A stretch of DNA of 64,000 nucleotides from Haloprofundus salilacus (GTDB lineage Archaea; Halobacteriota; Halobacteria; Halobacteriales; Haloferacaceae). Positions within the stretch are counted from its first letter, which is position 1. Every line of letters begins with the position of its first letter. Shown in pieces: positions 17,718-26,201 of the stretch. Both the position numbers and the translations under genes were made by a program. The stretch lies in NCBI RefSeq assembly GCF_020150815.1, contig NZ_CP083723.1:2790001-2854000 (forward strand), in the 5' to 3' direction. The notes beneath the pieces are model-generated. The model was not told the DNA's origin, ran no database searches, and saw only the letters and a program-made list of their open reading frames with translations.

Positions 17718-18749
17718 TCACTCGGCACCCAGTCCCGACTTCTCGACGCGCATGACGGCCTCGCCGTCGGGGAGGTTCGGCGCGTCGACCAGTTTGACGA
17801 CGCGTTTCGGTCCCTTGGCGTTCCGAAGGTAGAGGCGGACCGAGGAGGCGTGACCGAGGATGTTGCCGCCGATGGGACGGGTCGGGTCGCCGAAGAAGGC
17901 GTCCGGATTGCTCTGAACCTGGTTCGTCACGACGACGGCTACGTTGTAGAGATGGGCGATGCGGAGCAGGTCGTGGATGTGGCGGTTGAGCTTCTGCTGA
18001 CGCGCCGCGAGCGCCCCCCGGCCGAGGTACTCCGCGCGGAAGTGCGCCGTCAGCGAGTCGACGCAGAGGAGGCGAACCGGCCACTCGGTGTCTTCAGCCT
18101 CCGAAACCATCTCCTTGGCCGTCTCGGCCAGCAACATCTGGTGGTCGGAGTTGTACGCCTCCGCGACGTGGATTCGGTCGAGGACGTCACCCACGAGCGC
18201 GTCCATCGCCGAGTCGTCCCCGGGCGACCCTCCGATACCGCGACGGTCGAGTTCGGTCGCGACGGTTTCGTCGTCGAGACCGCGGACCATCTCGTCAATA
18301 CGCTCGGGTCTGAACGTGTTTTCGGTGTCGACGAACAGGGCGCTGCCCTCCAGACCGCCGTGTTCGCGCGCTAGTTGGACGTTCACCGCGAGTTGGTGGG
18401 TGACCTGCGATTTGCCGACGCCGTAGCCGCCGTACATCTCGGTGATGGACTGCGTTTCGACGCCGCCGCCGAGGAGGTCGTCGACCTCGGGGACCCGCCA
18501 CCGGAGTTTCCCGACTCGCTTTCGGTGCTGGAGTAACTCGACGCCGGTTTCGAATCGACCGACGTCCGCGAACTCGCGCGCGCCGCGGACGATGTCGCCG
18601 GCCGCGGTCTCGCCGATGTCGGCCGCACCCGCGATTTCGGTTGGACTCGCGACCGCCAGACTTCGGTAGGAGTCGTAGCCGGCCGTGCTCAGTTTCTCGG
18701 CCGTCGTCGGGCCGACGCCCGGGAGCCGTTCGAGGTTCGTCGCTGCCAT
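17718..18749 (-). CDS. second RadA-family recombinase (paralog)
   Basis: RecA/Rad51-type DNA strand-exchange ATPase, 343 aa, the same length as the canonical RadA encoded at 25039-26070 and alignable to it without gaps, well over half of positions identical by eye. It retains the N-terminal helix-hairpin-helix domain (1-60), the polymerisation motif (R65-FETG), Walker A (G107-G108-Y-G-V-G-K113-S), Walker B ('LLCVDS'), and both DNA-binding loops. In Walker A, Gly108 replaces the Glu of RadA. It is not the shorter RadB. The ATG at 18749 is chosen because the family starts there and a TATA box lies 27 bases upstream. Confidence 0.92.
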   Translation of the reverse strand: MAATNLERLPGVGPTTAEKLSTAGYDSYRSLAVASPTEIAGAADIGETAAGDIVRGAREFADVGRFETGVELLQHRKRVGKLRWRVPEVDDLLGGGVETQSITEMYGGYGVGKSQVTHQLAVNVQLAREHGGLEGSALFVDTENTFRPERIDEMVRGLDDETVATELDRRGIGGSPGDDSAMDALVGDVLDRIHVAEAYNSDHQMLLAETAKEMVSEAEDTEWPVRLLCVDSLTAHFRAEYLGRGALAARQQKLNRHIHDLLRIAHLYNVAVVVTNQVQSNPDAFFGDPTRPIGGNILGHASSVRLYLRNAKGPKRVVKLVDAPNLPDGEAVMRVEKSGLGAE

Positions 18750-18772
18750 GTAAGTGGTTACCACCCACCGGG

Positions 18773-18806
18773 GATAAAGCGTCGGTAACTGGAGGGTGAA
18801 AGTGAA
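18773..18806 (-). promoter_or_regulatory. promoter of the radA paralog with shared element
   Basis: On the + strand ATAAAGC (18774-18780) followed by 15 bases and GTGAAAGTGAA (18796-18806). Read toward the gene this is TTCACTTTCAC-N15-GCTTTAT, with the TATA-like part centred about 27 bases before the ATG. Canonical radA has the same block with identical 15-base spacing, and the flanking CCCACCGG is also shared. Confidence 0.65.
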
Positions 18807-25038: not shown

Positions 25039-26070
25039 TTATTCCGGCTTCAAACCTTCGTTCTTGACGCGTATGACGGCCTCACCGTCGGGGAGGTTCG
25101 GCGCGTCGACGAGGCGGACGATACGCTTGTCGCCCTTCGATTTGCGGAGGTACATCCGGAACGTCGACTTGTGGCCGAGGATGTTGCCGCCAATGGGCTG
25201 GGTCGGATCGCCGAAGAACGCGTCGGGGTTGGCGGACACCTGGTTCGTGACGATGATTACGCAGTTGTGGAGGTTACCGACGCGGTCGATGTCGTGGAGG
25301 TGGCGGTTGAGCTTCTGCTGGCGGTCGGCGAGATTTCCGCGGCCGACGTACTCGGCGCGGAAGTGCGCCGTTAGCGAGTCGACGCAGAGGAGGCGAACCG
25401 GCCACTCCGTGTCGGTGTGTTCGCTGGCGAGTTCCTCGGCCTTCTCGGCCAGCAGCATCTGGTGGTTGGAGTTGAACGCCTTCGCGACGTGGATCTTGTC
25501 GAGGAAGTCGTCGATGAGTTCCTCCATCGCGTCGTCGTCGGACGGGGTGCCCTCGATTTCGCGGTCGTCCATCGTCGCCTGCAGCACGTCGTCGTCGAGA
25601 CCGCGGACCATGTCGTCGATGCGCTCGGGTCGGAACGTGTCCTCGGAGTCGACGAAGATGCAGGAGCCGCGGAGGCCGCCCTGCTCCTTCGGGAGCTGGA
25701 CGTTGACGGCCATCTGGTGCGTGATCTGGGACTTACCTGCGCCGAACTCGCCGTACACCTCGGTGATGGACTGGGTCTCGAGGCCGCCGCCGAGGAGGTC
25801 GTCGGCTTCGGGGATCTGCCAGCTGAGCTTGCCGATGGTCTCGCGGCGTTCGAGCACCGCCGAACCGGTCTCGAAGCCGCCGATGTCGGCGGCGTCGCGG
25901 GCGGCGAGCACTACGTCGTTGGCCGTGCTTTCGCCGATGTCGGCCTTCGAGCCGAGGTCGCTCGGACTCGCGACGGCGATGCTCTCGTACGTCCGATAGC
26001 CGGCTTCCATGAGCTTGTCTGCGGTCGCGGGGCCGACGCCGGGGAGGTTTTCGAGGTCGTCATCTGCCAT
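25039..26070 (-). CDS. radA: DNA repair and recombination protein RadA
   Basis: Archaeal RecA/Rad51 recombinase that assembles on single-stranded DNA and carries out homologous pairing. The 343-aa protein has the N-terminal helix-hairpin-helix domain ([12 protein letters not shown]), the FETG polymerisation motif (66-69), Walker [10 protein letters not shown] (107-115), Walker B 'LLCVDS', L1 '[12 protein letters not shown]' and L2 '[14 protein letters not shown]'. No intein. A second, diverged copy lies 6.3 kb upstream (17718-18749). Promoter with TATA-like box about 30 bases before the ATG. Confidence 0.97.
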
Positions 26071-26097
26071 TGTACATCCGGCTTACGCCCCACCGGA

Positions 26098-26131
26098 CAT
26101 AAAGCCTCGTTAACAGGGGAGTGAAAGTGAA
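26098..26131 (-). promoter_or_regulatory. radA promoter with shared element
   Basis: On the + strand ATAAAGC (26099-26105), 15 bases, then GTGAAAGTGAA (26121-26131). In gene orientation: TTCACTTTCAC-N15-GCTTTAT, about 30 bases from the ATG. The same block with the same spacing precedes the radA paralog, and CCCACCGG between the box and ATG is also common to both. Confidence 0.65.
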
Positions 26132-26201
26132 ACTGGACGCGGGCGTGGCGGTCGTTGATTAGCTGACGAGAATGTTCAAAATTAGAGAATAAGAGGGCGT
26201 G

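Follow-up and report, generated by a model that had tools for sequence, protein, structure and literature searches.

The radA gene of Haloprofundus salilacus and a second gene of the radA family share a promoter block, the core of which, the box TTCACTTTCAC, recurs in exact or related form before repair and replication genes of other Halobacteria and of methanogens. The box very probably marks a conserved DNA-damage regulon. Control of such a regulon by a non-initiator Orc/Cdc6 protein of the type called P0003 here is the best joint explanation and is rated somewhat better than even; the assignment of the P0003-type Orc as the regulator of the box, predicted from sequence and comparative analysis, stands at even chances when taken by itself.

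Promoter block of the two radA-family genes

In the window (the whole stretch of 64,000 nucleotides that was analysed), the pattern TTCACTTTCAC-N15-GCTTTAT has exactly two matches, 18806-18774(-) and 26131-26099(-), and none in 100 shuffles. Both copies lie directly upstream of open reading frames, 17718-18749(-) and 25039-26070(-), and the two loci contain the following features.

17718..18749 (-): radA paralogue P0001, 343 aa, 66% identical to RadA
18796..18806 (-): predicted damage box TTCACTTTCAC of the radA paralogue, holding one ANTTTC hexamer (ACTTTC)
18781..18791 (-): second element CAGTTACCGAC of the paralogue, counterpart of CTGTTAACGAG of radA
18774..18780 (-): GCTTTAT of the paralogue, BRE/TATA-like, 15 bases past the box
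18764..18771 (-): CCGGTGGG of the paralogue, between TATA and ATG, common with radA in this genus only
25039..26070 (-): canonical radA P0002, 343 aa, RadA family
26121..26134 (-): predicted damage box AGTTTCACTTTCAC of radA, with two tandem ANTTTC hexamers, AGTTTC-ACTTTC
26106..26116 (-): second element CTGTTAACGAG, specific to radA and almost unvarying in Halobacteria
26099..26105 (-): GCTTTAT of radA, BRE/TATA-like element
26089..26096 (-): CCGGTGGG of radA, between TATA and ATG

The shared block, the 15-base spacing, the GCTTTAT and an extra common piece before the ATG had all been described in the initial annotation, and pattern search of the window found them exact. The same annotation held that the TTTCAC core recalls the UV-box but is not that box, which has to be corrected, since ANTTTC is contained exactly in the box, as ACTTTC before the paralogue and as the tandem AGTTTC-ACTTTC before radA; the match alone is weak evidence, a six-base consensus being short. 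The published 11-bp motif TTTCACTTTCA is present exactly at radA (26121-26132, upstream of the TATA box), and in the paralogue box, TTCACTTTCAC, the first T of TTTCACTTTCA is a G. In both genes the extra piece CCCACCGG, which reads CCGGTGGG in gene orientation, comes two bases after GCTTTAT; this identical spacing is seen in this genus only and may stem from local gene conversion or from a 5' leader element.

The published UV-B motif

The box itself is not new, as it was published in 2008 as a UV-response box. Boubriak et al. (2008) found TTTCACTTTCA upstream of radA1, top6B, vng17 and vng280 in Halobacterium sp. NRC-1, all four of which are induced by UV-B, radA1 by about 8-9 fold at higher doses (PMC2556686). 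The motif was also located before radA of four other haloarchaea and of Methanospirillum; no motif was found before Halobacterium radA2 (vng1665), and there was one near-match beyond the four UV-B genes (PMC2556686). A regulator binding site was proposed and no protein was named (PMC2556686).

Distribution of the box in Halobacteria

The box is not random in the H. salilacus genome, because TTCACTTTCAC occurs there in 10 exact copies, where an order-1/2 Markov model trained on the window predicts 0.4-0.6. Eight of the ten sites precede genes, namely both radA-family genes, top6B, PCNA, DUF5790, an Orc/Cdc6 gene, a 62-aa open reading frame and an ilvA leader; after these eight, an AT-rich TATA-like stretch lies about 11-16 bases on, and the ATG usually stands about 55-62 bases on. 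In 24 genomes, TTTCACTTTCA has 105 sites against 44 for the reversed control and about 4-5 expected from window composition; the reversed control is conservative, since TTTCACTTTCA read backwards (ACTTTCACTTT) itself overlaps with the tandem repeat, and the Markov expectation serves as a second control. The regulon was sampled by pattern searches and selected regions, and across the 24 genomes TTTCACTTTCA recurs before radA, top6B, DUF5790, Orc, ilvA leaders, a RecA-like 209-aa protein and a family of small proteins.

The radA box is present in essentially all Halobacteria sampled, at a near-fixed distance to the TATA, and in many families of the class the block upstream of radA reads TTTCACTTTCAC-T-CYCCTGTTAACGAGG-STTTAT, with little variation in spacing. 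It had been suspected at the outset that the block is a regulatory element linked to DNA damage, and the suspicion is supported by this class-wide conservation at fixed spacing, by the repair and replication genes among the targets and by the UV induction published for Halobacterium. It had also been suggested to look for the element in relatives and to compare its genome-wide frequency with chance: it lies upstream of radA in close and distant relatives alike, and its 10 copies are far above the random 0.4-0.6.

Several observations concern single members of the box-bearing set. CTGTTAACGAG (26106-26116; homologues in L041-L093 and L198-L251) is nearly invariant before radA, which does not hold before the other box genes, and is probably the unpublished extra element mentioned by Boubriak. 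The protein of about 210 aa encoded after the box at L151, L159 and L167 matches Rad51 weakly (Pfam PF08423, E 7.5e-4) and is possibly a degenerate recombinase relative. A family of tiny proteins of 43-77 aa, whose start always falls 56-59 nt past the box, is encoded at L004, L102, L120, L152, L163, L190, L192 and L196 and in the H. salilacus genome at G000:C1 ~2266690(-); its members have R-[IV]-[DE]-V-[ST] on the N-terminal side and a C-terminal LERRGG[KR]TFLV, matched no Pfam or NCBIfam family, and are candidate damage-inducible small proteins. The box before threonine ammonia-lyase (ilvA) is located at G000:C1:2593343, with others at L007, L180, L183, L108, L110 and L189, and is followed by a leader in which a GCACGTCACRCGTGC hairpin is conserved and the tail is C/T-rich. 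The leader had no match in Rfam; between it and ilvA there is a further TATA-like TTAA, so that it may be a small RNA of its own. In two small-genome haloarchaea of family f2 (L100, L101), the box is carried by another Orc-like AAA+ protein of 347 aa, and in a third genome (L102) it precedes the tiny-protein member listed above.

The box in methanogens and related archaea

In radA promoters of methanogens and related archaea, the core is ACTTTCA or ACTTTCG, most often in the form ACTTTCACNCCGC. With one mismatch allowed, TACTTTCAMNCCGC has 137 sites in 18 of these genomes against 38 for the reversed pattern. About 13 of the 40 sites examined in this set precede DNA-repair or replication genes; nine were assigned by family models (RecQ, Hef, topoisomerase I, UvrA, replication factor A, SbcD, an XPB-like helicase and two radical-SAM repair proteins), and the other four by inspection of near-identical N-termini. 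This share is far above chance against a background that we estimate at a few percent. A second Orc is also among the genes preceded by TACTTTCAMNCCGC in methanogens, and one operator is common to the radA, UvrA, RecQ, Hef, RPA, SbcD/Mre11 and topA matches downstream of the boxes there.

An Orc/Cdc6 protein as candidate regulator

The box-bearing Orc/Cdc6 gene P0003 (G000:C1:2740235-2741359) is about 49 kb away in the same genome. One copy each is found in 144 of 145 Halobacteria, orthologues in methanogens are about 50% identical, and among the many Orc paralogues of H. salilacus only P0003 scores over its subfamily cut-off. The locus is not origin-like, because only 24 bp separate it from the next gene downstream and about 115 bp from the one upstream, with no repeats. 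P0003 fits what is described for Halobacterium 'Orc6' and is probably the same protein; Orc6 is conserved in most archaea, is not essential and has no origin activity nearby, and its deletion gave no discernible phenotype in a study whose focus was not DNA damage (PMC1906834). The openly accessible literature searched contained no haloarchaeal Orc-based damage regulator.

The promoters of orc itself carry the box upstream in genomes of family f1 and/or an inverted copy at the start codon, and in this genus the P0003 promoter has both, a box upstream of the TATA and an inverted box at the ATG. A reading of the promoter sequences themselves shows inverted GGTGAAAGTG in 15 of 20 genomes that belong to nine other families; across most haloarchaeal families it stands directly against the orc ATG (L390-L407, L011-L015). 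An exact copy at either position is missing from 14 of 30 orc promoters of Haloferacaceae, and most of those in Methanomicrobia and Methanosarcinia are without a box. An inverted box over the transcription start would suit autorepression. In alignments, the Walker B motif of P0003 (residues ~140-150) reads LDDVNYLF versus the LDE of initiator Orc proteins, a change that perhaps alters the ATPase.

Outside ordinary Halobacteriales, the radA box is present in 23 of 25 genomes with this Orc versus 1 of 21 without it (Fisher p ~1e-9); the with-Orc count becomes 24 of 25, the better figure, once the box of G225 (L300) is included. The exceptions are G168, which has the box without the Orc, and G170, which has the Orc without the box, and the Halorutilales, inside the class, have neither. 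The co-occurrence is limited in weight, because relatedness leaves only 2-4 independent contrasts (Orc losses) on the RadA tree; nearly all run in the predicted direction, and a phylogeny-aware sign test on 2-4 contrasts cannot reach 0.05.

Some other transcription factor might read the same damage operator, such as a winged-helix protein that the lineages without the Orc have lost too, with the Orc gene just a target. This is quite possible, if clearly short of even, as the box has many targets besides the Orc, it is missing from some orc promoters, independent contrasts are few and G168 keeps the box without the Orc. Against it, a Sulfolobus Orc paralogue reads ANTTTC and binds its own promoter, an inverted copy is kept at the orc start codon, and Orc and box are jointly absent in Halorutilales. 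Less can be said for the box as an extended, BRE-like core-promoter element that one TFB isoform recognises; replication and repair genes would then be expressed strongly at base level or in step with growth, and not in response to damage. Its position directly upstream of BRE/TATA at a near-constant distance and the replication genes PCNA and top6B among the targets would fit; this reading is nevertheless improbable, in view of the inverted copy that the orc start codon carries downstream of the TATA, the occurrence of the box in methanogens, which are distant from the haloarchaeal TFB expansion, targets specific to damage (uvrA, recQ and hef among them), and the UV induction of box genes in Halobacterium (PMC2556686).

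The two RadA proteins

Both 343-aa proteins score far above the RadA equivalog cut-off of the family models. The paralogue is found in three of five members of the genus tested (G000, G022 and G099; absent from G019 and G081), is 74-76% identical to Halegenticoccus proteins, and groups in the RadA tree with the Halegenticoccus paralogues with high support, apart from the neighbouring radA; these Halegenticoccus paralogues also carry the box. Recent duplication is ruled out as the origin of the shared block, because the two proteins are only 66% identical in amino-acid sequence and lie in different parts of the RadA tree. Conservation is stronger in the promoter block than in the coding sequence, CCGGTGGG excepted. 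That the block is a remnant of recent radA duplication or gene conversion, lacking common regulatory meaning, could draw on the 7.3 kb distance and same orientation of the genes and on CCGGTGGG, whose equal spacing in this genus only could reflect local sequence exchange, but is scarcely credible given the identity and clustering just described and a box kept across the phylum and before unrelated genes.

Other RadA paralogues differ in their promoters. Those of Halonotius (L239, L242) have lost the box; in their Halohasta relatives it is unchanged or differs at one position. A Halorussus paralogue with the box (L250) is located on a plasmid, and the paralogue may be mobile.

Proposed mechanism and its meaning

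If the box is read by a P0003-type Orc, as preferred here, the block would be the operator-promoter of an SOS-like DNA-damage regulon. TTTCACTTTCAC, with its tandem ANTTTC and the phylum-wide core ACTTTCACNCCGC, lies immediately before BRE/TATA, a position from which a bound factor could aid recruitment of TFB/TBP. After damage, radA, its paralogue and other repair genes would be turned on together through TTTCACTTTCAC. The most likely binder would be the single-copy, non-origin Orc/Cdc6 P0003, acting like Sulfolobus Orc1-2, and P0003 would control its own gene via the inverted box at the start codon. Conservation of the box, the genes that make up the regulon and the Orc-box co-occurrence are observed here, and UV induction in Halobacterium comes from the literature; that P0003 is the regulator, binds and activates the targets and controls its own gene is our inference. 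A wider proposal, offered tentatively and at somewhat less than even odds, is that ACTTTCACNCCGC is the ancestral SOS-like operator of Halobacteriota, run and autoregulated by a non-initiator Orc equivalent to Sulfolobus Orc1-2. The Orc-based damage response would then predate the split of these archaeal lineages, and its damage-inducible parts would include a second RadA, a family of 45-77 aa proteins and possibly a small RNA.

An SOS response was thought absent in halophilic archaea in a 2017 review (PMC5626843). A phylum-wide box before radA, uvrA, recQ, hef, RPA and mre11 would mean that a regulon of this kind exists, and would bear on how euryarchaea sense damage and switch on their repair genes. 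With an Orc as candidate, its control can be tested directly in Haloferax, Halobacterium and Methanosarcina, which are genetically tractable. If true, damage control in archaea far apart would be linked to replication-initiator proteins, and an 'orphan' Orc that is nonetheless conserved would gain a function.

Comparison with known systems

The element is like the Halobacterium UV-B motif in its sequence, in its place about 50 bases upstream of the radA ATG and in having radA and top6B as carriers. The present analysis adds PCNA, Orc, small proteins and a further genuine RadA-family gene to the carriers; it also extends the motif to a repair regulon of methanogens, phylum-wide in extent, and proposes a regulator. 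Neither the phylum-wide regulon nor the Orc candidate was found in the literature searched.

In Sulfolobus, the non-initiator Orc1-2 binds ANTTTC in DNA-damage-response promoters, its own included (PMC9738581), and a Sulfolobus UV study reports that repair genes were not increased (PMC2246294). The box here resembles the Sulfolobus DDRE, or UV box, in its ANTTTC hexamer and promoter location; the presumed regulator, like Orc1-2, is an Orc/Cdc6 paralogue with the box in its own promoter, though not universally. In contrast, the element here is longer (a tandem hexamer or ACTTTCACNCCGC), and its targets are the classical repair genes radA, uvrA, recQ and hef. P0003 is likened to Orc1-2 by presumed role and motif.

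With the bacterial SOS system and its LexA box, the likeness is a functional analogy only: a short operator stands before recombinase, excision-repair, helicase and single-strand-binding genes, and the regulator seems to control its own gene. LexA is not known from archaea. The candidate regulator here is an AAA+ Orc/Cdc6, and no LexA-type protein is proposed. The box here lies upstream of the TATA, which suggests activation rather than LexA-type repression.
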